Translations under genes and position numbers: made by a program
Part shown: positions 1 to 45,528 of the stretch, in pieces
How positions within the stretch are numbered: position 1 is the stretch's first letter
Layout: each line of letters starts with the position of its first letter
Notes under the pieces: generated by a model
The model's input: only the letters and a program-made list of their open reading frames with translations
Told to the model about the DNA's origin: nothing
Databases searched by the model: none
Assembly: GCF_963576615.1 (NCBI RefSeq)
Contig: NC_088711.1
Span: 7,558,869 to 7,622,868, forward strand
DNA from: Watersipora subatra
Taxonomy: Eukaryota > Bryozoa > Gymnolaemata > Cheilostomatida > Watersiporidae
Direction: 5' to 3'
Length of the DNA: 64,000 nt

Positions 1-264
1 TTTATGCTGTGTAAAATAATTTTTAGACTTCAAAATTTGTATTCGATTGTACAATGTTAAGCATTTCTACGATTATAATCATGTACAGAAAAACCTTACC
101 TATTTCCTTAGCTGTTGTATTATATCCTTTATTTTATGTAAATATAGTCTGTACAGCAAAATACGGCAAAGTACAGCAAATTTTAATCTACTGGTGAAAT
201 AAAAGTCGTTACTCCTTCATAGGTGTGTTGATTATTCTGCTTGCAAGATATTGTCATGGCGAGG

Positions 265-3200
265 TCATTTTCTGAGAAAGATACCTCTTCCCCTTCCTAG
301 AACAATATTCAATTTAACATCAATGCTATTTTTTTCTGCAAAGTGTAGTTAGTACTACATACATACAGTAGTTAATACTAGTATAGTTAATAGGTTTATG
401 GTTGGAACTGCAAGATTTTTTGCTCGAAGGTTCATTCAGAAGTGGGTGGGTACACCAATTGAGCAATTGCTGATTTACTCGTATAACAATACTACACATA
501 GTACATACTTAGATGTAGGACAGATGCATTCAAATCGGTAGAAAACATTGCGCCTCCACGACCACCTGCGATGGCAATCAAGTACTGGTATGGCAAATTT
601 GTGATGTATACACTAAATGCTTTTTAAGCAAACCCAAACAGCAGTTACAGGTGACTGCTACAGATACATTATCAAAAAGATACATTTCTCTGTTTTCATA
701 ACACTTAATAAAAAGAGGAGACAACCTGTTGTAATGTAGTTTTGTTATACTTATGCAAACTCTTGATTTAACTGATGTAATACTAATTTAATGAACAGAT
801 GTTCTAAAAAGCACCGCTCACCACTGGAACTGGAATTCGGAGCAAATTGTAGTTCTTGTTCGACACGTGTTTTTTGCTCAAAACCAGGTGGTGGTAAGCC
901 AGTGAATGATGATTGCGGGTTAGGATAGCGCACTCCAAAGCCTGGAGGTGGGCCAGTGTCACGCCGTCTGACCATATCTTCTGGAAAGTAGGCACCTTCT
1001 CTGGGAGGCGAATGTTTAGGGGTTGGTAATGGTGTAGCGTGAGGAGTGGCTCTTGGTGTTGATGCAGGTGTTTTTCTTCTACGCCACGAAGCTCCTGAAC
1101 GAGAGTTTGGCACCCAAGTCGCTTCCCTATTTACTGCGAGGTTGATATTCTTGGATGATGATGATGCTGTACACACAAAAGCTACATATCAACTACAGCT
1201 ATAGAGGGTGCAAATTAAGAAACATTCATTATTATAACAAGTAAAAGGATGTCTGAAAAATGTTTGAGTAGTTTGGACAGTTAGTGTAGATGCGCAACAC
1301 CACTCTTCACCCACAATCAGTCTATTCAATTGGCACATTCTCACCTCTCGGTCAGTCTTAATCACACAACATCTTGTCACATAGACTTCAGATATAAATT
1401 ATTTTTTGATGTAAAAGCATTTTTACAAACAACTTAATAATATCTTCCCAGTAAATACGAGTTCAGGTGACCATACCATCTTCATGAATGGATCTTATAA
1501 AAATGATGCAAGGTTGCAATAATTCAACTAGAAGGAAGATTCTTTGACGCAACCTGTGATTTTACACCTGTTAACGAGGTTGGTATATCATAATAAACAC
1601 AATTTTCTGGTTTATGTGTATCAAAACTAATTTACTATCCTATGCAAACTTTGGTCACTTCATTCACGATGTTAACTTGTTACATCGGCTGTTTCGCGTC
1701 TAACTGTAGTGGTACGCTCCGTTATTTTTGGTTTGTACCACCACTGATTAGAAGTCTCACTAAAATTCCATTGGATTACCTGATTTGTAAGATGAACCAA
1801 TTTGCAATGAAGAGAGAATACTGTTGACTGTCGATGAGGTAGAATTGAGTGGAAGCGATTGTACACATACGATAAAATACCCTACTGAGTGTAATTTAAA
1901 ATAGTGATGGAAGTTGTGGTGCCCATTAACCTTTTACCATATGAAGATGTGCCTCCAATACCTCTAAGACAATAGCAAATTCTGTTCCTAAATAATGAAC
2001 ATTCATGTTTTATAAACTATATTTCCATGAACTGAAAAGCCGAATGATGATTGCTTACTGAAATCAACTAACATATATAGAACCCAAAATCTGATCGAGT
2101 TAATATTCAAGTAGGTATGCTCACTTGGTAAGTCTACTGCCACGTGATGTGGAGGAGACGAGGAATAATTAGTAGAAGGAACGTTAGGTCTTGAACCTAC
2201 AAGTGACAGACGCAAGTCAAGCTGATGAGGAATTTGTTCATGAAAAGGATTTATCACAAAAAATTACCAGTCACTGGCTTGCATATGCTTTTGGAATCAA
2301 ATAAATAAATAATTTAAGGTCAGGCAACTTCAACATAAAAACCTATGCAACATGTCATATGAACTGGTTTTAATTGTTTTCAAATTTATCATTACAAATA
2401 AAATAAGTGCTTCAACACTCATTAATTTTCTCACCAGATCATGTAACTATTGTTACGGTATATATTTTTAAAAAGTATTTCAATTTATTTGCACATTGTG
2501 TAGACTGTAGAGCATGTGATAAGAGGGAACAAGAATTATTTCATTATTTCCATCATACGCATAATATTAGAAAGATTGCTATCTGAAGATCTAAAAACCA
2601 ATAGAACACTGATCACGAGTGGAGGATGGGTTATTTGGGGGATGGGCTAGTTGGGCTATGGAATAGTTGGGGTATGGAGGTGTGTTACAGTTTGTCAAAC
2701 TACGATTAAATATAGCTGCACCACACAGCAGTTGTTTCCCTTGTTCCACCAACATAGGTGAAAATAAAAAGAAGACAAATCCTTAATATCGTACTAGTTA
2801 TCTGTAATCACTACAACGAATTAAGCCTCAGATTACTAATGCTTTAGTTGCTTCGTCTCCAGATTATCAACTTTTTTTCTAACTATCTAACTTCTCTTAT
2901 TCTAGTTGCTAAAAATCATCTGATGATCTTTCGTTGTTATGAGAACACAACTGACAACCAGAATTACGTGAGCTGATACACCTGTTTGCTTTGAACTAAT
3001 TATTAATCTGAAGCATTTTAAGAAATTGTTCCGATATAAACTGCTAGTGATATTTATTATTTTTTAACAGAATGTGCTTTAACCAAATTACCATGCTGCA
3101 GTAAGTGCCAGCGTTTTACACCAACACGTAAGACAATGTCTTTCTAAATCACTAGTACGATTGATTTAAAGAAACTAACATTAAAAGTATAGCTCACAAT

Positions 3201-6200
3201 TATAGATTATGCCTACTAACCACCAACTTTTAATTAGATTTGTACAGCTTAAAGAACCAGGAGGAACATACCGAAGGCTGCGACCAAACTGCGAAGTGCT
3301 CTACACAAGAAGAGCTCAACAGATATAAGCGACAATGCTATACAACAGAGAAGCACAGATAAATTGAAGTTCACGATAAAGGCTTACCAAAATTAGACTA
3401 CGGAGCCGGATGTCGCGCACCGTGTTGTTGGAATCTCATATCACTGGACTTATTTTTATTTTTAGCATAGTCTAAATTTGCAGCGCCAGCAGGACGGAAG
3501 ATTGGGGCAGGCTGCGCTACTCTAGCCAGCACCGACTCTGTTTTTGGAAGGTTGGCTGGAGTCTTGAAGGTCTACAATATTTCAACTTTCATTCGTAGAA
3601 GTGCCAAACTGAACATGCATTCACATTGCAGCATCTAACAGTGAACACTGACAATTGGATAACCAGATGTGAAATGAAGAAAGCTGAACGATTAAATTTA
3701 ATCTGGAACATAATAAAAACTTAAATGCAGTTTTGTATACAGTAGATAAAATATAATCACTTTAATTAACTGTGATTCTATTACAGTTGAAAGTAACATA
3801 GCAGTGCCATAAGTCCGCCTAAAAGACCTACTGGATTTGGTTGAATGGTGGGTTTTGGGGGAACCCAACTTTGTTCATCCTCATGTGCTACGACAAACTG
3901 GGGGTCTTTAACTGTTGGAAGATGGGTACGAGGTTTCACCTCATAGTCGTATAGTTTCTTTAGAGCATCGGCAATTGCATAACTACAAAAAGCCTGAATA
4001 CTATTCAATAGCAAAAATACTGTATTGAAATACATAAGAATGAGTCAGAGTACAACATACACTTATTTTTAATAATACGTATACAATGCATATGTAAATA
4101 GTGGGAACAAATGACCAGAGCAGTTTCCGGTTATAAAACCATTACTTACCAGAACTTACGCACCCAAAGTAGGGAACAGTGCTTGCATTCCAAATCTTCA
4201 TGGTAATTGCACTTGAGTCCTTGATGGTAATCGTGTGTGGTGCTTGTCAGCACATCATTGGCCGCAGATTTGGTTGGCCCGCCTTTACCAGAGTGATTAA
4301 CCAAGCCAACCAGAAGGCTCTCAAGCTCATAAACCTACGTAACGAATGAGACTGATAACACCGCAGAGACACTAGGTGAGAGCAGAGTATATCAAAGCTC
4401 TCAGCTAATGCAGGTTTCGTAATGACACTGAAAGCTTTGTAATGAATAATGTCGTATTATTTAACAATATATAAAATTCAAGTCTTTATACAAGTCTAAA
4501 ATACAGGGTTGGCGTTGTATTTTTTAAAGGGCTCGTCAGAATTTTGGGACGATAAATTTAGTACTTTTACGAGTGAAACAAATGTCACCTATATATTGCT
4601 CATTTTCCGGTGGAACGATATTAAACCTTTTAGATGCAATAAATCTGCTAACATAACTCCAACTTGTCAAAGATCTCTTAATAAGTATGCATTAAGAAGC
4701 TGAGAAATATCTCTACTAGTTGACTACTGCTTGCAATTAACCTGCGATGATATTATAGCCTATGTACTGCTTTGCAATTTGTTAGAGCTTTCAATTTTTA
4801 TTTCATTCTGAATTTGAAAATATGTTTTTATTTTATATTTATATTTAACAATGTGACATAAAAGCTCATTGCACTCATTGGTATGTTTGCTACAGTTTGC
4901 AACTAGAACTGTATTTTTATGTGCAATAGAAGAGGAGTTATGAGCGTCGATCCATTGTGAATCGTTTTAAGATAGCCGCAAGGATGCTATTAAATAATAT
5001 GCTACAAATCTGCAAACTTATAAGTTACATAATGATTATCAATCAAATGCTACAAATATATATAGTCATGAACAAGTGACATAAACGAATTGTACTTATA
5101 TTACACGCAGAAACAAAAGTTAACAATTTTAAAACAAAAATATTTGCATCGTTTGCTCGGATAGCTGCGTTCTGATTGTTGCTTTTGATGGAACGAACAT
5201 CCTCTGGTTGTCCAATACTTTCCACAATGTCTTCTGACCTCAAAGTTTTTCCGCACTGCTGAACTAGTCAATATTAGCGTCCAAACAATTTTTTGGTAGA
5301 GCAATACTTTTACGTGATGCATTTAGCACAAATGCAATGCATAAGTTTTCCTCATTAAGCCTTTAGCCTAAAACTAGTCGTTCATCTACCATCATAAATG
5401 TAAACCATTTTTATATACAAGAAAACAAGCAAACAAGGAACTACTATTAACCTGACACAGTTGTTTTAACAGAAAAAAAAAACGAAAAGCTTTGGAGTTG
5501 GATAATGAGAGAATTAATTGTTATTGAGGTAAATGATTCATTATTAATATGATTTTGGGGACACTTTTCTATTGATCAATTGATATTATGTGTTCGTAAA
5601 GATCAGAGATTGTCAAAGTGGTGGTCAAATGAAGGTGGCGTTTAATTAGATAGTGGCGCTCTGTTTTTCAACTCTTCCCTCACATGTGTGGCAGTCAAAT
5701 AGAGGTGAAGTTCAATTAGAGGTTTTACGGTACATGTGTTTTGGCTTGATAGTTTCTCATTGAGTGCAACATTACTGGTGATGAGGTGCATCATAGTAAT
5801 AGACAACTACAGAAAAGCAAATCTTTAAATAAATCAATTGCAATGAAAAGCACGATCTTAAAATCACATGGAAACACTTCAAATGCATGAAAAAAACAGA
5901 CTATTACTGCACCGGTTAATTCAAATGCCAGCAATGTTTACCTTAATATTGGCAGCCCTTCGGCCGAGCTGTGAATTTTGCTTAATAAAATCTAGAGTAA
6001 AGTGCACTTTCTTCCATTCTTCTCTCAAAGCAAATACAGGAGGATAATAAGACAGTTCTCCAGAGTGGTTGAGGAAGTTCTCGAGAGAGTTCTGAACTGA
6101 GAGGTAACTACTGTTTGCATCTGGATGGCCTTCCACCGGTATCTTGTGTGTATCTTCACCTGTGTCAATATGAACCATGAGCTGACAATTACAGGAGAAA

Positions 6201-7600
6201 CTTGACAAAGTGTAGCGTAATATAAACCAATGCTGTGACGGCTTCACCCAATGAGTAACTTCTGGCCAAAGCATCAGAGTAAATGCATCTAGCATTTCAC
6301 AATGCTTACTTGAGCTGAATCTAGTTTTTTTGTCATCGAGATTTACGCAAATAAATTATGATCATGAGGTTTATAATACCAATTGTATGCTTCATAGTAT
6401 TCATTTTTAAAACAGCTTTTATTCAACACGGTGTTATTCTGCTTTCAAGCAATACAGTGTCTATTTTAAGGAGAACTGCTTTCTTTCCGCATGGTTCAGG
6501 TTTTATTTTAAACTAACTGACGACTAGCTAGCCAATCAGAATAAAACGGCGGGCGTAAATATCAAGCGCGTCTAACGTATGCGAAGACACTGGAGCTCAA
6601 CAATAACATCAGCAGTGCCAACACCTTCAAATTCACCAGCAATATCTCTTTACATATATTTATTCAGCCTTTACTGGACTAAATGTTATTAATTTGACAT
6701 TGCTGAAATCCAGCTCTATCATGCCTGTTATGAGATTTAGAATGTCAACACAACTTATTAGACAAATCAAGGTAGACAAAGTCAAAAGCAGTTAGGAGCT
6801 TAAATGAAATGACAAAAAGTTGCTCTTTATTAAAATGGTACAATTCTCACAGCTTCTTTATTTGAGTCAGTATGCTCATCATAGCATAAATCTGTCTATT
6901 ATGATATACATGTATATATATACTATGGTATATACTCATTATAATACATAATATTAATATTATACATTTAAGCGGAAAACTTAATTTCCTGATTACCACG
7001 CAAGTATCCTGAAGAAAACCGACAAACAAGGAAATAAAAATTCTTTTAACAATTGCCACGGTTGCGTTATATTTAAACTTCACAAGCTTGAAAGATAGAA
7101 AAGTATAAATGTCAATATTATATAGTATATAATATAAACACAGTTATATAATATTAATATATTATATTTTTTTATCTAGATTTTTCCAATGAGCCTGTCA
7201 AGGTAGAGATTGTCTACCAAACTGCTGCTAACAGAGACACATTAAAGGAGACTGATTCAAACCCTATATGAGTGTCAAATATAAACAAGCTTGTACATGT
7301 ACACATACCATAATGGAGGTTATAGTTCTATCGAGAAACATCAACAATGCTTCCGAGTGGTGAGATAGAAACACTGCAAGAGACTGGTCAACCGAATATA
7401 TGATCACTCACTTTGACTCATGCACTCGTATCTCATGCCAGTCTGTATTTCCCCAGGCTTAAGGAACTGATGGTAGGCTTTTTTGATGCCATCTTTGAGT
7501 GAGAACTCGATAACAGCGATCTCCACAGGCATGTACCGACCATCGCTTGTTTTGCACAAGCTTTGAACATCAATGAAGTGGAATAACTCTTCCGTTATAT
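265..7600 (-). pseudogene. Headless inverted copy of maelstrom (exons 4-13), with a premature stop
   Basis: This copies the last ten coding exons of the maelstrom gene at 12856-23721. Exons in transcript order: 7600-7412, 6159-5942, 4334-4150, 3982-3832, 3571-3388, 2196-2125, 1884-1780, 1166-822, 565-509, 296-265. Every exon keeps AG and GT splice sites and the same phase as its partner. The first three exons (start codon, HMG box, linker) are absent because the duplication starts inside intron 3. The first two copied exons translate identically to the intact gene. The third keeps the C-x2-H and following Cys residues of the MAEL domain, and later exons show many replacements. Exon indels relative to the intact gene are +6, -3 and +6 bases, all multiples of three. 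In the exon 3571-3388 a CAC codon is replaced by TAG at 3400-3398, which would cut off the disordered C-terminal tail after the whole MAEL domain. No upstream start exon was found, so pseudogene is likely, but a MAEL-domain-only product with an unseen first exon is possible. Confidence 0.85.
4506..5730 (+). mobile_element. TA-flanked MITE family, copy 1 (left arm only)
   Basis: This lies in the intron between the copied exons at 4334 and 5942, making that intron about 1.6 kb against 0.45 kb in the right arm. The right end reads AATTAGAGGTTTTACGG followed by TA. At the matching site of the right arm the flanking TA is present without the element. The left end is truncated or diverged. Related copies lie at 32335-33500, about 44395-45526 and 59052-59967. 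There is no transposase reading frame. TA target sites and the terminal repeat suggest a Tc1/mariner-like non-autonomous element; that class is inferred. Confidence 0.75.
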
Positions 7601-8379
7601 CTGTAACCAAAAACCACAAAGGCTATTTGAAGGAGGGAGCAGAACAGGTTCTTTGACACCAAGTATCAGTTTTTGGGTCTGCAACTGCAATGTTTAGAAA
7701 CGAGCTTTTTATTTAGAAAATGGGTTTTCTATATTAAACAAATTAGAGTAAAGGCTTTCAACTTAGCTACGCTTACTAAAACCTGCTAACCAGTTTATCA
7801 TGAGGGAAAAACATGATTACTATGACTAGCTATGATAACACAGAAAAACAAGACATACAGAGAGCAATAAAGGCTTTACTAAACAGTGATTGATGCCAAA
7901 TCATAAACAATAACTCATAGTTATAGCTACAACAGTGGAGGTGGCAAAATAATAACCTCTAGGAGGAGTCAAACAGGGCACTTCAATGTAGTTGGTGTAT
8001 TCATTGTAGGGCTGTAAAAAAGATACATGAAATAATTCTTAAATATTCTCCTTTATACATTGGCCCTGCTTTTTACTAAAGGTTCAAGGGTGCTACGATA
8101 CTGTAAGCATGTTGATTGATAGAACGAGAAAGGTTAAAATAGTCAATTCTATGAATTACATGATTGATGCAACAACGGATGCTTACAAAAGTTATCTTCT
8201 TTTTAAAGTTGCTTGTAGCCATCTGACTAGCATGCATGTGGTTTAAAAACAAACATTTGTTAGCATTGTTTAGTAATATTCACTCCAAGATGTCATGACT
8301 AGTATCGCCTGTCTAACCAATTATTATTCCTACATGCTGGTAAAGATACGGAAGATCATAAAGTCAATTAGCCAAAACA

Positions 8380-8475
8380 TTAGCGCCTGCAGGTAGCGAG
8401 TCATTCTACCAACGAAGTTTTCCCAGTTATTATTCAGCCCAGAGTTCGATTCTGTCTCAACCACTATTTTTTTGC
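8380..8475 (+). repeat. tRNA-derived SINE-like fragment (left arm)
   Basis: A T-arm-like segment, CAGAGTTCGATTCTG, has a four-base stem around a seven-base loop and a B-box-like GTTCGATTC. It is followed by a short T run. The A box upstream is poor. The inner breakpoint of the inverted repeat lies about 100 bp away. The same fragment appears reversed in the right arm. Confidence 0.35.
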
Positions 8476-8854
8476 ACAGATTTGCATGATGCACACAAAT
8501 TTAGCAAATTTTTTTGCGGTAAACAACTGGAAGGTAAAAGTTAAAGATTATTAAAAACAATATGAAGACATTCAGAGTACAACATTGTACTGACACCTCT
8601 GTAGGAATTGATAATCATCACTTCTCACTACTAGCTTTAGTGGTTGAAACATACTTTGATTTAAGACAGCACCACTTTGCCAACTTAAGAAACCTAGATT
8701 TACATAAAGTGAACATCAGACATAATGCTAAAAAAACATATTATTTAGATGACAGTGAACTGTTATGTGGCTGTGACATAATTTGTCTATAGCCGATTTA
8801 AGTTAGTATTCATTTTAAAACTTCTCTATAATGTATAGAGAAGTCATACAAATT

Positions 8855-9245
8855 GTACGGTTTGCAGGCATGTAGTAGTTCAATTTATTATATGATTTAT
8901 ATATACTATAATACTATTAGACGTTATATTAGGGTCATCAGAGCATCTTGCTCATTAATTTTTTATGCATACATCATTTATTTTCTGAATCACAAAAAAT
9001 TTTTATGGTCAAGCATAATGTAATTAAGATTTATAGTTTGCTTTATATATGCATACAATTTGTACAGTTCGAAGGCATTTAGTTGTTTAATTTATTATAT
9101 ACTTTTTATATATAATGCAATTAGACATTGTATTAGCATCTGAGCATCTGGCTCATTTTCTATGCATAGATCATTTATTTTCTAAATCACAAATCAATTT
9201 TGTGGTCAAGCATACTGTAGTTAAGATTTATAGTTTGCTTTTGGT
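8855..9245. repeat. Diverged tandem duplication, unit about 195 bp
   Basis: Two successive units share, in order, TTTGCAGGCATGTAG-like or TTCGAAGGCATTTAG-like starts, a TAATTTATTATAT segment, a CATCTGGCTCATT-like segment, TCATTTATTTTCT, and an ATTAAGATTTATAGTTTGCTT end. It lies in the palindrome spacer just inside the left breakpoint. The rest of 8580-10500 is AT-rich, and I see no gene in it. Confidence 0.7.
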
Positions 9246-10518
9246 CTATATCAATGAATAACACATATAAATATAACACAAATCAAGATATATTGAGTGT
9301 TGGGACCTACTGGCGCAATAGCTAAAGCTAATTTAGGCTCGAGGCCAATCCAACCACTTTTCGAACAAAGCAATGTAGGTTGCAAGATTTTAGTCAAAAT
9401 TAATGTATAAGTATAATGTATTAAGTTTTGATCAGTGATCTCTTATTAGATAGTCAATAAGTTTTAAAGCTAAAGTTCACTGGGCTGGTAACACGAGCGA
9501 TGCCAATGATACCCTTAAATCCAGTGGAAACATCTGTTGAATAGAAATGCTAATTATATAGAGCCCATACAGAGTTGTCTGCCTATTGTTGAAATCATAC
9601 CAATAGCCATCTACAACAATAACTTATACCGTAGCCTAGAATCTGTAGATCTTTATCTAGCTTGATTTTGATATATAGATTGAATGAATATGTAGATCTT
9701 TATCTTGATTTTGATATATAGGTTGATCAAGATTGGGGATGGATAAAAGCACCCACAAGCTCATTGAGATTAAATGTTGTACAATGTTGCTAGGTTACTA
9801 CCTATAAAAGGGAGCGTGACCATGTAGCATTGACCAAGGTGGCACTCAAATTGTTACGCGGGTAAATGACTTTGGCCATTCAGTATTCAGTACCCCACTA
9901 TGACTATCTATCTTATCTATGAGTACCTGATTGCATTAACTCACTTGCTTAGCACTATCTATTCAGTGCCTTTGCAAGTCATGTAGGTATGGAATTGCTT
10001 TACATAATAAGCATATATTAGAGTAATAAACTATGAAAATCATTTTTTTAATATGAGCAATAATTACTATCTTAACTGTGGAAATTCATGATATATTGTT
10101 TAACCATTTTCATGGCTGATGTTATTAATCTAGTCAATCATTACGATTGACTAGCACAAAAAAGGGGCGTGGCCTAAACGCTTCTTGTTGGCACCAGAAA
10201 CGTTCTTGTTGTTATCACTCTAGGGGGAGATATCTCTATGGTCTACCATGTCGTTTGTGTTTGGTGTGTGCGTGGCGGAAATTCTTGAGTGCGTGACTAG
10301 GCTAGCCCGTGGGCAGAACATAGGGCTAACAGATTAAAAAGTTTGCGTGTCAAAACTACCGTATGTGGAAGTGTAGAATACGTACTAGTTGTTGACATTG
10401 ACCACAGTCATTATCTTGTAGTTGTATATAGCCGTCCGTTGTCAGCCTCTTTGTTCATATTGACTCACTCATCTGTTATGTAATTCTTATGTAATAATCC
10501 TTTTACTCTCTTGTCTCA

Positions 10519-10555
10519 CTTATGTAGTAAGTCAGTTGCTGACTTACTACATAAG
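10519..10555. repeat. Perfect 17-bp hairpin
   Basis: The arms CTTATGTAGTAAGTCAG (10519-10535) and its exact complement (10539-10555) are separated by three bases. It lies in the spacer upstream of maelstrom, 185 bp before a larger foldback element. No transcript or function is implied. Confidence 0.8.
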
Positions 10556-10740
10556 CTTCCAAATATACAAGACTAACAAGCATAATGATAATGCAGCGTT
10601 GTTAGCGCTTAAAAGGGTAAAAACAGAATTGACTATCTCAACAAAGTCCGCTACGATGATCCTCCAACGTAAAAATACAAAGAAAGAACTCTGACTAAGC
10701 GCGTTTAACCAAAATAACGCAAACGCAGCACTGTTTTATC

Positions 10741-10871
10741 TAGCCTGTCTTGACAAGCTGTTGTTTTTGCGAAGTTGTCTCCCCGTCGAACGGCGAGCAA
10801 CAACGTTGTTGTTGCTCGCCGCTCGACGGGGGGACAACTACGCAAAAACAACAGCTTGTCAAGACAGGCTA
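10741..10871. mobile_element. 131-bp foldback MITE with 9-bp target duplication
   Basis: The ends are TAGCCTGTCTTGACAAGCTG and its complement, and the inverted arms run nearly perfectly to the centre (about 62 bp each). TGTTTTATC occurs immediately on both sides (10732-10740 and 10872-10880), which reads as a 9-bp target-site duplication. Long terminal inverted repeats with a 9-bp duplication are typical of Mutator-like elements, so a MULE-type foldback MITE is the best guess. It is GC-richer than its surroundings and can form a strong cruciform. Confidence 0.8.
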
Positions 10872-10916
10872 TGTTTTATCGAGATCGCAGCTAAATAGGC
10901 TTTATATTACAATTGG

Positions 10917-11085
10917 TCAATTTCGGTCATAGCTACCCAACTTATTTTCATCGAGTTTTAGCACGTTTAGGCAGGTCTGAACCCTTTTCGCTCCATCAGC
11001 ATCTCCAACAGATATTTCGCTTATAGACAAAAGCGAATTTAAAAAAGTTAGAACATCATTTACAATTTGTGACTGGAAAACAGGT
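10917..11085 (-). CDS. Unassigned coding-like exon
   Basis: An open frame on the minus strand follows a possible acceptor (CTGTTTTCCAG at about 11086-11096) and ends in TGA at 10917-10919. Its roughly 55 residues look protein-like rather than random: a predicted helix with leucines (VNDVLTFLNSLLSIS), then acidic and lysine-rich segments, then a C-terminus ending LGSYDRN. There is no in-frame ATG upstream, so it would be the last exon of a gene running away from maelstrom, but no companion exon was found. I do not recognise the family. It could be an orphan fragment. Confidence 0.25.
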
Positions 11086-11357
11086 GTCTTCTTTTCATGT
11101 TTGTGGAAGTGTATAGATGACAATTAATATTTTTATTATGAGTCAATTTTCAAGGATTTTCATTTGAAATATGCTTTCTAATTAAAAAAGCTTATGAAAC
11201 ATATTATGGTTTTTAGTTTTGAGCTTTCTGCGACTTTGTATAAACTACGTACAGCCATAATTATAGCATAATAATTATAATAATAGCATTAATTAATATT
11301 CGTGCGACATGATTGGCAGTTATTTCGTCGATCGGCGCGATCTTTTGGTAGGCGTAA

Positions 11358-11364
11358 TATAAAG
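11358..11364 (+). promoter_or_regulatory. Candidate TATA box for maelstrom
   Basis: TATAAAG lies in a locally GC-richer patch (11295-11420) about 1.5 kb upstream of the first coding exon. That exon is preceded by an acceptor (TTATTTGCAG ending at 12850), so at least one non-coding 5' exon must lie upstream, and this patch is the best-looking source. No experimental support. Confidence 0.3.
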
Positions 11365-12855
11365 GCGAGGATTGTAGGCGAGTTTCGTAATAGACAACTC
11401 GACTTGAATACAGTTCCTGACGCAGAGCAAACCCAAAAAGCTGTTTCTTTCTCATATCAAATTTATTTGAATGAGGTTAATCATATCACCTGGCTCATTT
11501 TACTCGTACATTAAATCTGGCCTGGTTTTTTCCTAACCAACGTAATAGCTAATCGGTAAGGTACAATATTTTTGCTTGCCTAACCGCAGTTTTTTGTATT
11601 AGCTATCCAGTGAGCACCTTTTATATGTGCACAACATTAAAAAACTTCGGTATTTAAAGCTCATTTATTCTAAAGCATTGTGCTCGGTGAAACTTTGTGT
11701 GTTATTCATACAGTTATTTCGTTCTTTAACAAGTAACACAGCCTTGTTTATTGAGAATACAATACAGTTTTGTGGCATAAGTTCGAATCTAATTTGCATC
11801 ATTTTACACGTTTGGTTGCACATATGTTTATATAGTTCATATAAAATAAGGTATGCTGAAAACACATTTTATTATGTCATATTAGCTTGAAATTTTATAT
11901 GCTATTTATTAAACACTCTTGCTACTACTGTGTTATCTAATTGTTTCTTTACTGTATGTGAGTATTTCTAGATATAATAATTTGATAATTGAAAATGTTT
12001 ATTTTCTATACTTATTTTTCTTGAACCTGCAATGAGCTAAGCTTGAATTAAACTCAAGCTAAACTCATATCCAAAAGCTGAAATTATTTTACATTATAAG
12101 TGTAATGCCATGCTTTCAACTGCACACATTGTCTATACATGAATTTTAAATGGACCACTATTGTCTACAATAATATTTCATAGTGCTCTATTTAATTTTG
12201 TTTCAATCCATTTTTTGTCTGACTTAACCATAAAATGAAGTTGAAACTAAAAACACTAACATCATGATTCATCCTGCTAATCAATGTTTTTTTTATAAAA
12301 GTTGGTTTATATTAGGATGCCAATATGGCTTTCAGGGCCTTGTGTAGGCCTGCATCTCATAGAGAGTAGTTCCTATATAGTTTGAGGCAGACACCCATAT
12401 TTATTACCACATCTGATTCCAGAAATAGATTGCAATTAGATGTGAGAATGATTGCCTGTTCTTTGATACTTTAGCTAATGACTTGTTTGATTACTGAAAT
12501 ATGGCAAAAACCCAAGTTAAGTTCATGAAGTCTATTAACTTCCAATAGTATGAAAAGCTGAGCCAATGTTTGATTTTTGAAAAGTTTTGGCAGCATACTG
12601 TTTACCCTAATATTGTGAAATCACAAACATCTGTTAGAAAAGAAATTTTACTAATAGGTTAATTTATGTCATTCAAGTGTTCTATTGCTAATGAGTTGTG
12701 AATCGCTGTTTTTAGCAAATGGTATTCATTAATCTGCAAAAAGTTCATCAAATACACAACTGTTAGCTTGTTCGTTCTGTTATTGGTAACAATACTTTAA
12801 CAAGTGTGTGAATAGAGAATGGAAAAACATCTAGTATCTTTTATTTGCAGTTAGA

Positions 12856-15800
12856 ATGCCTGGCAAGAATAAGCAACAAAAGAATGCCTTTTACTTCTTC
12901 ATGCAAGAGCTTATGCCTGAGTTAAAGAGAGAAGGAAGAGTCTTTCCAAATGGCATGGCTGATGTGGTGCCCATTGCTCATCCAAGGTTTAAAGTACGTA
13001 GTTGTTGTTTCCCCTGTGAGCTGTAAAATTGCTCACTGTTTGTATGCAATTGTTGGCAGGGTGGTTGGTATAAATTTGCATTAATGTTTTTATGGTACTG
13101 TCTAGATGCTGTCAGAGAAGGATAAAGAACGATACGACAACATGGCTAAGGAAATGAAGCGAAGAATGAGAGGCCAGCCAGGAGATGCCATAAGGCAGGA
13201 CAACGTTGGCAACATTATAGCTGTAAGCAAGTTCTGCATTGTATGGAACCTTTAGTGCCATTGGTGCATGTACTATTATAGACTGACTGATTATTAGTAG
13301 GAATATTGGTGTCCCTACTGAAGCTTGTGATATATAAGCTAAGTTCTCAGATAGTTATGGGTTGTATGAGTGAAATGAATTCCTCGCAATTTGGAATAAG
13401 GGAGGAGCGTTAAAAATGTTTTTTTCTTCTCAAATTTTAGTACTATTCTTGCTAAGTGAATAGTTTACTAAAACATCTGTCTATAAGAATCAAATTGGGT
13501 TAACATTTTTTGTTGGTGTAAAAGTCAACCAGGCTCTATCATTGTTTGGCCATGCTGTCATTATCATTTTCACTCGGCAGCTACAGTAATTGTTGAGCGG
13601 AAGTACCTAAAATCACCATAAACAATAGGTGATTGTTCGCTATATTCTCCTTGGTTTCAACGGCTGGTAGCTTCACGTACATGGTTATTCACTTTCTTGG
13701 CTAACTGCCAAATACACGCATACACAATCTATTTTATAAGTGTTCAAGATCGTTATGATTTAGTAGTGTAAACTGATCTTTCTTTCAAGTTTGCTTACAC
13801 TTTTGAGTGTTCTATATTTCTGAAATTATTTAAATAGTCTTGTTTTGTAGTTTTGGGTAGAATGATATCGGTCGGTATAATTGGGAAGATGTTCCAACAA
13901 TGTTGAATGTAAACAGGATTGTTACTGTTTGTCTTTAAAGGTCACATGTTACTGTCCTCATTTAAAGTCTTTTGGTAAAGTTAGTATAAAGCTAAGCAAG
14001 AGTGGTCCTGATATACAATAACCCATGTTATCAATATTTGCATAGCATCGCCGAGATGAGGTGTCAGAGTATGAGCAAGAGCGGGAGAAAGAAATTCGAG
14101 AGTACATGCGTCTCTGGCCACAAAAAGGTGTGTTTTATAATAGGAGACTGTATAGCACCTGTGTAATAGATTATAATAAATGTTCCTCGACTTCCCTATG
14201 TGTCTTCATATATATATGGAGATCGGTTATGGAGAGTAGACTAGTGGTATAAAGACAGTGAATAGAGAATATTTGCAGTGTACAAGAAGGATATATCACG
14301 CGTACAGGGATGGTGCTGGTAGAATATATGTACTCCCCTATCCATCTTATCATATTGTATGTCTGGGTTAGCTCGCTATATTGTCTGCATACTCTAGAGG
14401 AACGAGCTTGGTGCGCACAAACTAATCTGTGAATGATAAGTTAACAGAAACTATAAATTTGTTAAGTTGAGGGAGGCGTTGCATCTTGTACACTGACATT
14501 AGCTTACAACATGTCTAGCTTGCTCAAGTGTTAGTTGAATTTATTCATTACTCGTAAGTAGAATAATCGACACAATGGCTTCCACATTTCATGATGGTAA
14601 AAATATGAAAATATTTGTTCAAGTCTAAAGGTGTAACACAAACGCTTGGTATCAAACTAGAAAGTTATTACTTGCTTTTAATATTTTAGTGATTTTCTAA
14701 TGCTACATTTAACTGATATAGAAATGAGTGAAGGCGCTGTAATTTGTATGTTAGGAGAAGACAACTTGTAATAAATATACTAACAAGTAAAATGTTTCTT
14801 CCAACCAATATTTTGGTTTGCATTTCAAAGTTTTTAAAGAAAGAGAAGTTCAGTTGAAGCACTTTTCTGATTGAACAAAAGCTGGTATGTTACTGTATGT
14901 TACTATTAGATAGGTTAGTAAACAGGTTTTGCTGCTTTCAGGTAACAACTTCAATGTTGCAGTTGTCAGCTCTTGCAATACAATTTTTTTCTTGAAAACC
15001 ATTGTGTGAACTCTGAATGTCTTCATATTGTTTTTAATAATCTTTAACTTTTACCTTCCAGTTGTTTACCGTAAGAACACTTGCTAAATCTATGTGCACA
15101 ATCATGCAAATCTGTGCAACAAATTGGTTGAGACAGAATCGAACTCTGGGCTGAATAATAACTAGGAAAACTGCGTTGGTAGAATGACTCGCTACCTGCA
15201 GGCGCTAATGTTTTGGCTAATTGACTTTATGATCTTCCGTATCTTTACCAGCATGTAGGAATAATAATTGGTTAGACAAGCGATACTAGTCATGACATCT
15301 TGGAGTGAATATTACTAAACAATGCTAACAAATGTTTGTTTTTAAACCACATGCATGCTAGTCAGATGGCTACAAGCAACTTTAAAGAGAAGATAACTTT
15401 TGTAAGCATCCGTTGTTGCATCAATCATGTAATTCATAGAATTGACTATTTTAACTTTCTCGTTCTATCAATCAACATTCTTACAGTATCGTAGCACCCT
15501 TGAACCTTTAGTAAAAAGCAGGGCCAATGTATAAAGGAGAATATTTAAGAATTATTTCATGTATCTTTTTTACAGCCCTACAATGAATACACCAACTACA
15601 TTGAAGTGCCCTGTTTGACTTCTCCTAGAGGTTATTATTTTGCCACCTCCACTGTTGTAGCTATAACTATGAGTTATTGTTTATGATTTGGCATCAATCA
15701 CTGTTTAGTAAAGCCTTTATTGCTCTCTGTATGTCTTGTTTTTCTGTGTTATCATAACTAGTCATAGTAATCATGTTTTTCCCTCATGATAAACTGGTTA

Positions 15801-18800
15801 GCAGGTTTTAGTAAGCGTAGCTAAGTTGAAAGCCTTTACTCTAATTTGTTTAATATAGAAAACCCATTTTCTAAATAAAAAGCTCGTTTCTAAACATTGC
15901 AGTTGCAGACCCAAAAACTGATACTTGGTGTCAAAGAACCTGTTCTGCTCCCTCCTTCAAATAGCCTTTGTGGTTTTTGGTTACAGATATAACGGAAGAG
16001 TTATTCCACTTCATTGATGTTCAAAGCTTGTGCAAAACAAGCGATGGTCGGTACATGCCTGTGGAGATCGCTGTTATCGAGTTCTCACTCAAAGATGGCA
16101 TCAAAAAAGCCTACCATCAGTTCCTTAAGCCTGGGGAAATACAGACTGGCATGAGATACGAGTGCATGAGTCAAAGTGAGTGATCATATATTCGGTTGAC
16201 CAGTCTCTTGCAGTGTTTCTATCTCACCACTCGGAAGCATTGTTGATGTTTCTCGATAGAACTATAACCTTCATTATGGTATGTGTACATGTACAAGCTT
16301 GTTCATATTTGACACTCATATAGGGTTTGAATCAGTCTCCTTTAATGTGTCTCTGTTAGCAGCAGTTTGGTAGACAATCTCTACCTTGACAGGCTCATTG
16401 ACAAAATCTAGATAAAAAAAATATAATATAATAATATTATATAACTGTATTTATATTATATACTATATAATATTGACATTTATACTTTTCTATCTTTCAA
16501 GCTTGTGAAGTTTAAATATAACGGAACCGTGGCAATTGTTAAAAGAATTTTTATTTCCTTGTTTGTCGGTTTTCTTCAGGATACTTGCGTGGTAATCAGG
16601 AAATTAAGTTTTCCGCTTAAATGTATTATATTAATATAATGTATTATAATGAGTATATACCATAGTATATATACATGTATATCATAATAGACAGATTTAT
16701 GCTATGATGAGCATACTGACTCAAATAAAGAAGCTGTGAGAATTGTACCATTTTAATAAAGAGCAACTTTTTGTCATTTCATTTAAGCTCTTAACCTTTT
16801 TTGAATTTGCCTACCTTTATTTGTCTAATAAGTTGTGTTGACATTCTAAATCTCATAACAGGCATGATAGAGCTGGATTTCAGCAATGTCAAACTAATAA
16901 CATTTAGTCCAGTAAAGGCTGAATAAATACGTATATGTCAAGCGATATTGCTGGTGAATTTGAAGGTGTTGGCACTGCTGTTGTAATTGTTGAGCTCCAG
17001 TATCTTCGCATACGTTAGACGCGCTTGATATTTACGCCCGCCGTTTTGTTCTGATTGGCTAGCTAGTCGTCAGTTAGTTTAAAATAAAACCTGAACCATG
17101 CGGAAAGAAAGCAGTTCTCCTTAAAATAGAAACTGTATTGCTTGAAAGCAGAATAACACCGTGTTGAATAAAAGCTGTTTTAAAAATGAATACTATGAAG
17201 CATACAATTGGTATTATGAACCTCATGATTATGAACCTCATGATTATGAACCTCATGATAATTTATTTGCGTAAATCTCGATGACAAAAAAACTAGATTC
17301 ATGTCAAGTAAGCATTGTGAAATGCTAGATGCATTTACTCTGATGCTTTGGCCAGAAGTTACTCATTGGGTGAAGCCGTCACAGCATTGGTTTATATTAC
17401 GCTACACTTTGTCAAGTTTCTCCTGTAATTGTCAGCTCATGGTCCATATTGACACAGGTGAAGATACACACAAGATACCGGTGGAAGGCCATCCAGATGC
17501 AAACAGTAGTTACCTCTCAGTTCAGAACTCTCTCGAGAACTTCCTCAACCACTCTGGAGAACTGTCTTATTATCCTCCTGTATTTGCTTTGAGAGAAGAA
17601 TGGAAGAAAGTGCACTTTACTCTAGATTTTATTAAGCAAAATTCACAGCTCGGCCGAAGGGCTGCCAATATTAAGGTAAACATTGTTGGCATTTGAATTA
17701 ACTGGTGCAGTAATAGACTCTGTTTTTTCGAAAGATGTAATTTATTTAAAGATTTGCTTTTCTGTAATTGTCTATTACTAAGCTGGCCTCATCGCTAGTA
17801 ATTTGGCACTCAATGAGAAACTATCCAGCCAAAGCACAGGTATTTTCACAAATAAACAAAATGAAAGTGCTCTACATGTCTCTCACAAGTCTATAAAACA
17901 CTTGTTGATTAGGTCATGCCATGGCCTGACATACTGTAGGTCCTATTACTGCTATTTCTAGTATAGAAATAGCAGTAACATGACCTACTTTAGCAATCTT
18001 ATTAAGAAGAATGACTTCGCTATGCTAATTGCAGATCTCTATATAGTCTGTTAAAGATTGCAAGCCCTCATGAGACCTCTCTTGATAAGACGTCTCTGTG
18101 ATGTTATAAATCTTATGTCTTACTTAGGTTTATGAGCTTGAGAGCCTTCTGGTTGGCTTGGTAGATCATTCGGGTAAAGGCGCGCCAACCAAAGCTGCGG
18201 CCAATGATGTACTCACAAGCACCACACACGATTACCATCAAGGACTCAAGTGCAATTACCATGAAGAGTTGGAATGCAAGCACTGCTCTCTCCTTTGGGT
18301 TCGTAAGTTCTGGTAAGTAATGGTTTTGTAACCTGAAACTGCTCTGGTCATTTTTTCCCACTATTTACATATGCATTGTATATGTATTATTAAAAATAAG
18401 TGTATGTTGTACTCTGACTCATTCTTATGTATTTCAATACAGTATTTTTGCTATTAAATAGTTTTCAGGCTTTTTGTAGTTATGCAATTGCCGATGCTCT
18501 AAAGAAACTATACGACTATGAGGTGAAACCTCGTACCCATCTTCCAACAGTTAAAGGCCCCCAGTTTTCCGTAACATATGAGGATGGAAAAAGTTGGGGT
18601 CCCCCAAAACCCACCGCTCAACCAAATCCAGTAGGTTTTTCAAGCTAACTTATGGCACTGCTATTTTGCTTTCAACTGTAATAGAATCACTGTTAATTGT
18701 GATTCAGTATTATCAATCACTATTAACAGTGATTTAATAACTGTTAATAGTGATTGCATTTTATCAACTGCATATATATACAAAATTGAATTGGTAGGTA

Positions 18801-21800
18801 AGTTTTTGTTATGTTCCAGATTAAATTTAATCGTTCATCTTTCTTCATTTCGCATCTGGTTATCCAATTGTCAGTGTTCACTGTTAGATGCTGCAATGTG
18901 AATGCATGTTCAGTTTGGCACTTCTACGAATGAAAGTTTAAATATTGTAGACCTTCAAGACTCCAGCCAATCTTCCAAAAACGGAGTCGGTGCTGGCTAG
19001 AGTAGCGCAGCCTGCCCCAATCTTCCGTCCTGCTGGCGCTGCAAATTTAGACTATGCTAAAAATAAGTCCGGTGATATGAGATTCCAACAACACGGTGCG
19101 CGACATCCGGCTCCGCACTCTAATTTTAGTAAGCCTTTATCGTGGCCTTTAATTTATCTGTGCTTCTCTGTTGTATAGCATTGTCGCTTATACCTGTTGA
19201 GCTCTTCTTGTGTAGAGCACTTCGCAGTTTGGTCGCAGCCTTCGGTATGTTCCACCGGGTTCTGTAAGCTGTACAAATCTAATTAAAAGTTGGTGGTTAG
19301 TAGGCATAATCTATAATTGTGAGCTATACTTTTAATGTTAGTTTCTTTAAATCAATCGTACTAGTGATTTAGAAAGACATTGTCTTACATGTTGGTGTAA
19401 AACGCTGGCACTTACTGCAGCATGGTAATTTGGTTAAAGCACATTCTGTTAAAAAATAATAAATATCACTAGCAGTTTATATCGGAACAATTTCTTAAAA
19501 TGCTTCAGATTAATAATTAGTTCAAAGCAAACAGGTGTATCAGCTCAGGTAATTATGGTTGTCAGTTGTGTTCTCATAACAACGAAAGATCATCAGATGA
19601 TTTTTAACAACTGGAATAAGAGAAGTTAGATAGTTAGAAAAAAGTTGGTAATCTGGAGACGAAGCAACTAAAGCATTAGTAATCTGAGGCTTAATTTGTT
19701 GTAGTGATTACAGATAACTAGTACGATATTAAGGATTTGTTTTCTTTTTATTTTCACCTATGTTAGTAGCACAACTGGAACTCAGGGTTCCAGTTGTGCC
19801 CTGAACAACTGGGCAAAACTGTTCAGTTGTGCCCAGTTGTTTCATGGGCACAACTGAACAGTTGTTTCAGTTGTGCCCATGAAACAACTGTTCAGTAGTG
19901 CAGCTGTATTTAATCGTAGTTTGACAAACTGTACCACACCTCCATTTCTCATGAAAATAATGAAATGATTCTTGTTCCCTCTTATCACATGCTGCACAGA
20001 ATGCCCGCATATTGTGCATTATCGTGCTTTTATACCAAACTGGTTGATTATATTTTCCTAAATTGAAATATTTTTAAAAATATATATCGTAACAATAGTT
20101 ATAGGATCTGGTAAGAAAATTAATGAGTGTTGAAGTACTTATTTCATTTGTAATGATAAATTTGAAAACAATTAAAACCAGTTCGTATGACATGTTGCAT
20201 AGGTCTTTTATGTTGAAGTTGGCTGATCTTAAATTATTTATTTGATTCCAAGAGCATATGCAAGCCAGTGACTGGTAATTTTTTGTGGTAAATCCTTTTC
20301 ATGAACAAATTCCTCATCAGCTTAACTTGCGTCTGTCACTTGTAGGTTCAAGACCTAACGTTCCTACTACAAATTATTCCTCGTCTCCTCCACATCACGT
20401 GGCAGTAGACTTACCAAGTAAGCATACCTACTTGAATATTAACTCGATCAGATTTTGGGTTCTATATATGTATATATATATAGATATATATGTAAGTGGA
20501 TTTGAGTAAGCAATCATCATTCGGCTTTTCAGTTCATGGAAATATAGTTTATAAAACATGAATGTTCATTATTTAGGAACAGATTTTGCTATTGTCTTTG
20601 AGGTCTTGGAGGCACATCTTCACATGGTAAAAGGTTAAAGCACATAAATTACATAATTTTTTATTATATATTTCAGTACATCAGAGTCTTGGCTTTCGAA
20701 TGAGCCTATATTCAATACACAAAGAATAATAGAACTATGAAAAACGGGGTGTCAAAAGTACGTCCTGCAAAAAGAAAACACTTGGTTCAGGTACTCAAAA
20801 TGTGACGTCCTAATTCTCATTTAGCCTTAGGTCGTCGATCCCTTTCGCTGCCATTGAGGCTGCGTTTTTCTGTGACAATCGGTGCTGTTAAACTCGCGTT
20901 GCTAATACAATACTCGCGACCAATACAAACACATGTTCTGGGTTAATTAATTATGCTTCAAGAAATGTACTGTCGTTGATAAAGGTAAAGAAATCACATC
21001 AATTAAATTATGACCTGCTGTTGCGTGGCCTTTGGACTAAATGTCAATCGCACTCTTGCGAGATCACGCAATGCTTGAAATTAATTAGTCTCAGTCGTCA
21101 CCCTCAAAATCACATTAAAAATAAAGAGCTAGTGCATAATATCATCGAGAAAATATAGTATGGTTCTTATATATAATTGATATTATATATAAATAAATCT
21201 TTATAAATAATATAATATTCTAATATAGTATGGAGTCTGAGGTACTTATCATAGAAATAATATGTACATGGAGAACTAATGACACTGAATCCTATGTCAT
21301 CTTTATTCGTTTTCTGGAGTTGTCCTACCTTCGCCTGCCACTAGCGTCATTATCGTAGTTGATTAATAAGCGGTAAGAGCACACAAAAACGAATATGAGA
21401 ATTGTGACATCACAATTTTCGAGACTGCCAGTAAACTTTTTCGCGGTAGAGCTCTGGGGAAATCCTATTAACACCAACCAATGTCTGTCTCATCATGGCA
21501 AACAATAGCTCATTCGAAAGCCAAGACTCTGATGTATTGAAATATACAATAAAAAAATTATGTAATTTATGTGCTTTAATGGGCACCGCAACTTCCATCA
21601 CTATTTTTAATTACATTCAGTAGGGTATTTTATCATATGTGTACAATCGCTTCCACTCAATTCCACCTCATCGACAGTCAACAGTATTCTCTCTTCATTG
21701 CAAATTGGTTGTTCATCTTACAAATCAGGTAATCCAATGGAATTTTAGTGAAACTTCTAACCAGTGGTGGTACAAACCAAAAATAACTGAGCATACCACT

Positions 21801-23721
21801 ACAGTTGGGCGCGAAACAGCCGATGTAACAAGTTAACATCATGAATGAAATCACCAAAGTTTGCATAGGATAGTAAATTAGTTTTGATGCGCATAAACCA
21901 GAAAATTGTGTTTATGATATACCAATTTCGTAAACAGGTGTAAAATCACAGATTGCGTCAAACAATCTTCCTTCTAGTGGAATTATTGCAACCTTGCATC
22001 ATTTTTATAAGATCCATTCATGAAGATGGTATGGTCACCTGAATTCGTATTTACTTGGAAAATATTATGGAGTTGTTTGTAAAAATGCTTTTACATCAAA
22101 AAATAATTTATATCTGAAGTCTATGTGACAAGATGTTGTGCGATTGAGACTGACCGAGAGGTGAGAATGTGCCAATTGAATAGACTGATTGTGGGTGAAG
22201 AGTGGTGTTGCGGATCTACACAAACTGTCCAAACTACTCAAAAACATTTTTCTGACACCCTTTCACTTGTTATAATAATGAATGTATCTTAATTTGCACC
22301 CTTTATAGCTGTAGTTGATATGTAGTTTTTTTGTGTGTACAGCATCATCACCATCCAAGAATATCGACCTCGCAGTAAATAGGGAAGCGACTTGGGTGCC
22401 AAACTCTAGTTCAAGAGCTTCGTGGAGTAGAAGAACAACACCTGCATCAACACCAAGAGCCACTCCTCAAGCTACACCATTACCAACCCCTAAACATTCG
22501 CCTCCCAGAGAAGGTGCCTACTTTCCAGAAGATATGGTCAGACGGCTTGACATTGGCCCACCTCCAGGCTTTGGAGTGCGCTATCCTAACCCGCAATCAT
22601 CATTCACTGGCTTACCACCGCCTGGTTTTGAGCAAAAAACACGTGTCGAACAGGAACTACAATTTGCTCCGAATTCCAGTGGTGAGTGGCGCTTTTTAGA
22701 ACATCTGTTCATTAAATTAGTATTACATCAGTTAAATCAAGAGTTTGCATAAGTATAACAAAACTACATTACAACAGGTTGTCTGCTCTTTTTATCAAGT
22801 ATTATAAAAACAGAGGAATGTATCTTTTTGATGACGTATCTGAAGCAGTCACCTAACTGCTGCTTAGGTTTGCTTAAAAAGCATTTAGTGTATACGTCAC
22901 AAATTTACCATATTTGGTTGTCATTGCAGGTGGTCGTGGAGACGCAATGGTTCCTACCGATTTGAATACATCTGTCCCACATCTAGGTATGTACTATGTG
23001 TAGTATTGTCATATGAGTAAATCAGTAATTGCTCAATTGGTGTGCCCATCCACTCCTGATGAGCCTTCAAGCAAAAAATCTTGCAGTTCCAACCATAAAC
23101 CTCTAACTATGCTGGTATAGTCAATAGTCAACTATGAACTATCTTATTATAGTTAAGATAAACTATATTATTATAGTTAATAGGTCTATGTTCCAAACCC
23201 ACTCAAAAGTAAACGCTTATGTTAAACAACAGAGAATATTGTTTGTAACTTTGTGATAATTTATGTACCCTGCCCGGCTGCTCATCAAAACAAATACTGG
23301 ATATGTTACTAGCAAACAATATTCTAGTAGCAGTAGGTATTATCATCCCAAAACATTGGTGTCGTCTCGAAAATATTGAAATTACTCAGGATCGATTAGA
23401 TAATATCTAATATTTGTAAAAGAACCGTATAAATGCATCCGCTACAAGATCAAAATGTCATGTGGGATGGCTGTTTCCCATAGCATCTGAAGCACCACTG
23501 CCAAGTCCTAACAAGGACAAAACATGACTGACTGTCAGGAGTATATTTTTATTATTGATCACAGGTTTACACCGCAACAAATCAACTTGAGATATATATA
23601 TATATACGGTTGCAAATTCTCAAAGAAAAATCCGTTTTCTACACTTTGCAGAAAACATCGCATTGATGTTAAATTGAATATTGTTCTAGGAAGGGGAAGA
23701 GGTATCTTTCTCAGAAAATGA
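12856..23721 (+). CDS. mael: Maelstrom, piRNA-pathway protein (complete, 13 coding exons)
   Basis: Coding exons: 12856-12993, 13106-13222, 14046-14127, 15987-16175, 17458-17675, 18128-18312, 18480-18630, 18951-19128, 20346-20417, 21621-21728, 22343-22681, 22930-22986, 23690-23721. They splice with matching phases into 621 aa. Residues 1-85 form an HMG box (starts MPGKNKQQKNAFYFFMQEL; continues EKDKERYDNMAKEMKRRM). Residues from about 113 form the MAEL domain: the FLKPGEIQTGMRYECMSQ and EDTHKIPVEGHP segments match the family, and near 300-310 is the conserved zinc-site region CNYHEELECKHC. The C-terminal 300 residues are disordered, rich in Pro, Ser and Thr, with a GGRG motif at about 593 and GRGRGI near 612, candidate methylated-arginine sites. 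In other animals Maelstrom acts in germline nuage and nucleus in piRNA-guided transposon silencing. Exons 3-10 are joined by mixed but consistent phases; the exon at 21621 is supported mainly by phase and by an in-frame 3-bp difference from the left-arm copy. The last exon is only ten codons. Confidence 0.93.
15112..15207 (-). repeat. tRNA-derived SINE-like fragment (right arm)
   Basis: Mirror copy of the fragment at 8380-8475, inside intron 3 of maelstrom. The B-box-like GAATCGAAC is read on the opposite strand. It predates the inverted duplication because both arms carry it. Confidence 0.35.
17217..17262 (+). repeat. Tripled ATTATGAACCTCATG motif
   Basis: Three tandem copies of a 15-bp unit lie in a maelstrom intron. 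The left arm has only one related unit at about 6357-6375, so the expansion postdates the duplication or was lost there. Confidence 0.8.
17943..17990. repeat. Near-perfect short palindrome in a maelstrom intron
   Basis: Arms of about 22 bp containing ATTACTGCTATTTCTA and its complement surround a three-base centre and are bounded by AGGTC and GACCT. It occurs only in the right arm. It could be a minute foldback insertion; the near absence of a loop argues against a microRNA precursor. Confidence 0.75.
19768..19905. repeat. Cluster of nested foldbacks around a CAACTG motif
   Basis: Interleaved inverted repeats are built from GCACAACTGGAAC, TGGGCACAACTGAACAG and their complements. They give several alternative hairpins in 140 bp. 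The corresponding stretch of the left arm (about 2700-2760) lacks it. It lies within the intron between exons ending 19128 and starting 20346. Confidence 0.8.
20639..21575. mobile_element. 937-bp TTAA-flanked MITE inside maelstrom (right arm only)
   Basis: Terminal inverted repeats of about 65 bp begin AGCACATAAATTACATAATT at both ends. TTAA flanks the element at 20635-20638 and 21576-21579. The left arm has the uninterrupted site at about 1925-1935 (GCCCATTAACC), which gives a clear empty-site comparison. There is no coding capacity. TTAA targeting is typical of the piggyBac superfamily, but these ends do not begin with CCC, so the class stays open. It lies in the intron just before the exon at 21621. 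Confidence 0.9.
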
Positions 23722-23836
23722 CCTCGCCATGACACTATCTCGCAAGCAGAAAATCAACACACCTATGAAGGAGTAACGACTTTTATTTTACCAGTAGATT
23801 AAAATGTATTTTGCTGTACATGCTATATTTACATAG

Positions 23837-23842
23837 AATAAA
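23837..23842 (+). terminator. Polyadenylation signal, maelstrom
   Basis: AATAAA lies about 115 bp after the maelstrom stop codon. A signal on the other strand (TTTATT, 23782-23787) could serve ATF7IP. If so, the 3' ends of the two convergent transcripts overlap. Confidence 0.5.
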
Positions 23843-23993
23843 GGATATAATACAACAGCTAAGGAAATAGGTAAGCTTTTCTTGTACATGATTATAATCG
23901 TAGAAATGCGTAACATTGTACAATTGAATACAAATTCTGAAGTCTAAAAATTATTTTACACAGCATGGAAATCCTAATTTAGGCAGAAAATGT

Positions 23994-45526: not shown

Positions 45527-45528
45527 TA

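Follow-up and report, generated by a model that had tools for sequence, protein, structure and literature searches.

The 64,000-nucleotide stretch of the Watersipora subatra genome analysed here, referred to below as the window, spans positions 7558869–7622868 of contig C4 (NC_088711.1) in an assembly of 783.7 Mb and 239 contigs. It carries a complete copy of maelstrom, a gene of the PIWI-interacting RNA (piRNA) pathway, beside an inverted, 5′-truncated relic of the same gene which is most likely non-coding and appears to have been partly homogenised with it by gene conversion, a reading to which we assign a probability of about 0.7. A previous sequence-only reading had proposed that about 9 kb of the maelstrom locus is present twice, head to head. 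The long inverted repeat and its 6.4-kb spacer are indeed present, but the left arm holds only exons 4–10 of ten and is interrupted by a premature TAG. The rearrangement is thus real but ordinary, and consists of one gene and relics where two genes had been seen.

A complete maelstrom gene in and beyond the spacer

The right-hand gene lies on the + strand at 12856–22752 and comprises ten exons with 585 codons and a single stop at the end; all nine introns are GT–AG and in phase. We set its exons by inspecting open frames together with splice sites and similarity by eye, which gives a transcript-free model. The HMG box is encoded by the coding part of exon 1, which includes the start codon (12856–12993), and by exon 2 (13106–13222), as judged from frame and Pfam match, and is followed by a linker in exon 3 (14046–14127), placed by frame and splice sites. 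Exons 4 (15987–16175) and 5 (17458–17675) encode the MAEL domain, exon 6 (18128–18312) contains the C..H..C stretch CNYHEELECKHC, and exons 7 (18462–18630), 8 (18951–19128) and 9 (20346–20417) lead to exon 10 with the stop codon (22343–22752). An acceptor-like AG just ahead of the start codon may mark the end of an intron behind a 5′ untranslated exon, and a GT donor at 22682 within exon 10 makes an alternative 3′ end possible.

Both Pfam families expected of Maelstrom score above their cut-offs in the right-hand protein, PF13017 (Maelstrom) with 117.6 bits against a cut-off of 22 and PF09011 (HMG_box_2) with 47.2 bits against 22.4. The protein also aligns with the solved Maelstrom chains 9nhc, 5af0 and 4ybg and with the HMG-box chain 2cto. 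VEIAV and CNYHEELECKHC align with the zinc-site regions of the solved MAEL chains, putative counterparts of the E-C-H-C zinc residues of metazoan MAEL having been picked by eye and not from a structure. The right-hand gene is an ordinary Maelstrom.

Extent and uniqueness of the inverted repeat

Within the window, self-BLAST recovers the inverted repeat in pieces, left 4–8587 against right 15000–23966, mostly at 91–97% identity with one 104-base piece at 88%. We extended the self-comparison with 60 kb upstream of the window, negative coordinates denoting bases before window position 1. The left arm, a partial inverted copy (− strand) of maelstrom exons 4–10 and their 3′ flank, then runs from −821 to 8583 (9,405 bases, of which 1–8583 lie in the window), its outer end falling at C4:7558047, and the right arm, with exons 4–10 of the complete gene and the 3′ flank, runs from 15006 to 24721 on the + strand (9,716 bases). 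The suspicion that the duplicated segment is longer than the window shows was therefore correct, while the right-hand end, placed earlier at 23966, moves outward to 24721. With poorly aligned zones excluded, the arms differ at 297 of 7,384 aligned columns and are 96.0% identical; length and identity together exclude a chance repeat. The argument that so long an inverted duplication should be unstable is weaker than had been claimed, given arms that are 4% apart and a 6.4-kb spacer.

What lies between the arms by the limits of similarity (8584–15005) is a cut-off transposon, the 5′ flank of the right-hand gene and its exons 1–3. Those exons occur there once, which contradicts a pair of head-to-head genes: the whole-assembly search gave no second place for 13257–15005 or for exon 3, and exons 1–2 recur only as a broken relic upstream. 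Searched against the whole assembly, the MAEL family profile matches at two places, and this locus accounts for both. Whole-assembly DNA queries with 15000–17728 and 22200–24900 listed no third arm copy, the other matches being short and of 68–89% identity, and 17729–22199, queried through its exons only, gave exon matches at this locus only. The identification of the gene as maelstrom holds, and MAEL-domain exons are encoded in both arms, even though single-exon MAEL matches in one library scan stayed below the curated cut-off.

A left copy without a beginning and with a premature stop

On the − strand, the left copy contains counterparts of exons 4–10 only. Exon 4 (7600–7412) and exon 5 (6159–5942) are identical to those on the right; exon 6 (4334–4150) has 13 differences, exon 7 (4000–3832) has 11, exon 8 (3571–3388) has 6 together with 6 extra bases, exon 9 (2196–2125) has 2, and exon 10 (1166–751) carries 6 extra bases. 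Some of these differences alter the protein, and both 6-base length changes keep the frame. All seven acceptors are AG and all six donors GT, exon 10 ending in the stop codon, so that the claimed agreement of splice sites and phases between the arms stands for the exons that both possess.

The coding sequence is nevertheless disrupted. A TAG in exon 8 (3398–3400, read 3400–3398; read position 312) replaces a CAC of the right copy, and the left copy lacks the HMG box as well as most of the tail that follows the MAEL domain. Ahead of left exon 4 the frame stays open for only seven residues, none of them Met, and the first Met of the exon falls within the matched MAEL domain. No start exon was identified for the left copy, a systematic search for another first exon not having been made.

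Duplicated, or unprocessed, pseudogenes keep their introns, and may lack the 5′ end and bear a premature stop. The left copy retains the parental intron positions, which rules out a retrocopy, and has lost its 5′ exons and gained the TAG; it is probably a 5′-truncated pseudogene of this kind whose MAEL part is still open. It departs from the usual pattern in being inverted and not tandem, in the open MAEL part and in being identical to its parent over part of its length. Judged from its reading frame, it most likely yields no useful protein product.

Divergence rises outward along the arms

Noncoding divergence between the arms increases from the inner end outward, from 46 of 2247 columns (2.1%) through 39/1043 (3.7%) and 55/1199 (4.6%) to 112/1476 (7.6%), and is strongly heterogeneous over 1-kb bins (chi-squared 75, 9 degrees of freedom, p 1.6e-12). 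A run of 513 bases that is identical in the two arms, covering exon 4 and intron on either side (15758–16270 in the right arm, by arm alignment), is a candidate conversion tract. A run of this length appeared in none of 2000 shuffles over the arms and in 12 of 5000 restricted to the inner part. The arms are thus homogenised and share an identical tract longer than chance would give, as in a gene-converting palindrome, although selection on exon 4 may be part of the cause. From the identical run and the outward rise in divergence, we infer arm-to-arm gene conversion, strongest near the centre, as the best explanation.

An inverted repeat of this size might also act as a hairpin-RNA locus. Read-through from the left would join the antisense left copy to the right-hand gene in one transcript, which would fold into long double-stranded RNA and be processed into small RNAs against maelstrom. 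The geometry, with 9.4-kb arms at 96%, would permit this, and a precedent exists in the Drosophila simulans loci that suppress X-linked meiotic-drive genes (excerpts of PMC10317233 and PMC10292708). From a purpose-made hairpin we would not expect arms of several kilobases that contain introns, nor a loop that harbours the start of a gene, and divergence is highest in the outer arms. We consider such a function highly improbable.

Is the MAEL part of the left copy still in use?

In coding sequence, the proportions of nonsynonymous (pN) and synonymous (pS) sites that differ between the arms are 0.026 and 0.044 overall, about what is expected of one constrained and one free copy, the test being weak. 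Exons 6–10 give pN 0.038 (29/771 sites) and pS 0.059 (14/237), p 0.20, again a weak test, and in exons 8–10 the two are nearly equal (0.028 and 0.032).

Several observations weigh against a non-coding left copy. Its MAEL domain (exons 4–7) scores 121.7 bits, no worse than the 121.1 bits of the right, which speaks against advanced decay, and it keeps every shared splice site and has only frame-neutral 6-base length changes. Exons 6–7, with 24 differences in 354 positions, show pN 0.054 below pS 0.114 (p 0.07), a hint of constraint. Exons 4–5 have no difference in 407 positions, compared with the 46 in 2247 of the inner noncoding sequence (p 0.0007), and purifying selection instead of conversion could account for their identity. 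Polarising the changes between left and right by MAEL profile score revealed no useful difference.

These same data bear on the idea of a living MAEL-only gene in the left arm, transcribed from a promoter of new origin (which might be the reverse side of the maelstrom promoter region) and ending in a shortened tail. Its product would bind RNA without an HMG box and tune, or compete with, full Maelstrom. The intact frame across exons 4–7 with its full Pfam score, the unchanged exons 4–5 and the constraint hinted at in exons 6–7 are all in its favour, as is the report that an HMG-less Bombyx construct still bound single-stranded RNA in vitro. The excerpt of PMC4408791 which describes that construct also reports that HMG-less mutants are non-functional in vivo; here, moreover, the seven residues ahead of exon 4 include no Met, the first Met lies inside the domain, and the TAG takes away most of the tail. 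We regard a living MAEL-only gene as unlikely, and favour a pseudogene partly homogenised by conversion.

Transposons at the inner junction and insertions in the arms

The inner end of the left arm coincides with a transposon piece on the + strand (8580–9881, found by genome repeat search), which recurs at 39 other places with 83–91% identity among the best 40 scored of 3962 first-look candidates. As all seven copies fetched extend to the left beyond 8580, the copy in the window is cut off at that point, so it was either cut by the rearrangement or arrived with it. In a related copy, one frame weakly matches TNP-like_RNaseH_C, at 21.5 bits against a cut-off of 24 bits. The element may be of P-element type.

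Inversion by recombination between two copies of this transposon was considered and rejected: no second piece of it was found within 59 kb upstream of the left arm, and the sequence that continues the element past 8580 in four other copies has no match in the 124 kb examined. One upstream match, −6688 to −4682, belongs to a different element which is nested in one of the four copies (L025). The flank past the cut-off transposon (9893–10218) recurs in a different arrangement beside another copy about 0.8 Mb away (C4:6767738–6768668), and is possibly the long inverted end of a larger element.

Only the right arm contains the 937 bases at 20639–21575, a transposon-like insertion that has inverted ends and has duplicated its TTAA target. 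On the left the site is still empty, and the duplication of the arms is therefore older than the insertion. In the segment 4371–5730 the left arm exceeds the right by about 1.1 kb, and some 250 bases of the right arm (17843–18091) cannot be aligned there; relatives of the left segment lie at 32417–33476 and 44392–45528.

These features bear on whether the repeat is an assembly artefact, in which two haplotypes, or a fold-back read, were joined in inverted orientation. In very polymorphic animals haplotype divergence can reach 4%, the distance between the arms. Were the left arm an allele, exons 1–3 should have come with it, but it does not have them, and a fold-back read would yield near-identical arms. 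The divergence observed is graded and rises more than threefold along the arm, one arm has gained an insertion with its TTAA duplication while the other retains the empty site, and the junction sits at a cut-off transposon. A broken third copy lies upstream, and no other arm copy of comparable strength is listed in the assembly (17729–22199 being covered through exons only). An artefact seems to us quite improbable.

A third relic and the order of events

The third relic is in direct orientation. Window positions 10581–13256 match −23538 to −13123 in four pieces with an interruption of about 8 kb, and the three longer pieces have a substitution identity of 83–85%. Its exon 1–2 portion, 26 kb upstream of the intact exons, is 83.4% identical over 566 columns; the start codon is gone from exon 1, and in both exons there are stops as well as a frame-breaking length change. 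For the missing middle (13257–15005), nothing convincing was found beyond the left arm or elsewhere in the assembly. Between the exon 1–2 relic and the left arm lies a 2.8-kb repeat with short inverted ends (−9640 to −6830), which has 34 other near-full-length places at 94–97% identity among the 39 scored. Inside the stretch matched by the relic, the 131 bases at 10741–10871 form a near-perfect palindrome, a short element of which the genome has dozens of copies at 85–96% identity.

A genomic duplication, not a retroduplication, would have given rise to the inverted left copy of exons 4–10 and the 3′ flank. In what we consider the most economical order of events, an old tandem duplication of the whole maelstrom gene would have come first, followed by inversion of the 3′ part of the upstream copy and loss of the middle of that copy; owing to later conversion between the arms, parts of the left copy would then have stayed almost the same as in the working gene. 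The relic of exons 1–2 would be a remnant of the same whole-gene tandem duplication, or of an earlier, separate one.

If the locus is indeed one gene with a partly converted relic, two independent partial duplications are almost as likely as this single tandem origin. The 5′ half would then have been copied first, in direct orientation (about 16% substitutions by now), and the 3′ half more recently and inverted (about 4%). The 83–85% identity of the 5′ relic, set against the 96.0% of the arms, is what two ages would produce. However, the two pieces are complementary, one stopping after exon 2 and the other beginning before exon 4, both adjoin the gene, and conversion would be able to lower the divergence of the arms.

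Other features of the window

Toward the right-hand end, an exon-like frame on the − strand (62891–63304) matches 2-oxoglutarate dehydrogenase E1 over residues 62–131 (PDB chains 7wgr and 8i0k) and Pfam Transket_pyr with 36.2 bits; a 27-base tandem repeat (63148–63274) precedes the match in the same open frame. At 38079–38444 (− strand) a weak zf-Tnp_2 match of 22 bits, below the cut-off of 24, is perhaps the remnant of a transposase gene. Long tandem arrays occupy 57466–57999, 60664–61693 and 49758–50027, with units of 38, 40 and 11 to 24 bases, respectively. No tRNA and no Rfam family was found in the window. COX1 was not found, and searches for exact TTAGGG and TTAGG repeats gave no match in the assembly, nor did TTAGG in the window, although these negatives are weak given the limits of the search tool.

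Comparison with known systems and significance

That maelstrom is usually single-copy, as the sequence-only reading had remarked, agrees with the excerpt of PMC2628886, in which MAEL is single-copy in most species with some lineage-specific expansions (mosquito, sea squirt, amoeba). According to the excerpt of PMC6505081, the gene is duplicated in species of the Drosophila obscura group, and in D. pseudoobscura the X has received an expressed copy from an autosome; duplication as such therefore has precedent. The W. subatra locus resembles these cases in having a second copy of the gene or domain. In contrast to the expressed D. pseudoobscura copy, its left copy is adjacent, inverted, partial and stop-bearing, and, while the right-hand gene has both PF09011 and PF13017, it has neither the HMG box nor the greater part of the tail. 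Among the open-licence literature matches listed, whose titles and abstract openings were available, none describes an inverted partial maelstrom copy.

Palindromes of mammalian sex-chromosome genes, whose arms are more than 99% identical and undergo arm-to-arm gene conversion (excerpts of PMC8981503 and PMC3723533), share with this locus the inverted arms and the evidence of conversion. They differ in that identity here averages 96% with a gradient and one arm is broken.

Correcting an apparent maelstrom duplication to one gene and its relics matters for counts of piRNA-pathway genes, as an automatic annotator could call two maelstrom genes at this locus or fuse exons of both. The pair of arms is also a naturally occurring example of probable conversion between arms, in which the gradient can be measured. 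It is distinctly unlikely that selection holds exons 4–5 because the left copy is put to use, whether by supplying a MAEL-only decoy that binds RNA or by giving rise, within the inverted pair, to small RNAs directed at maelstrom. If it were so used, a gene of the piRNA pathway would be controlled by its own inverted relic, and expression of the left copy would mean that a transposon-silencing gene has a regulator derived from itself.

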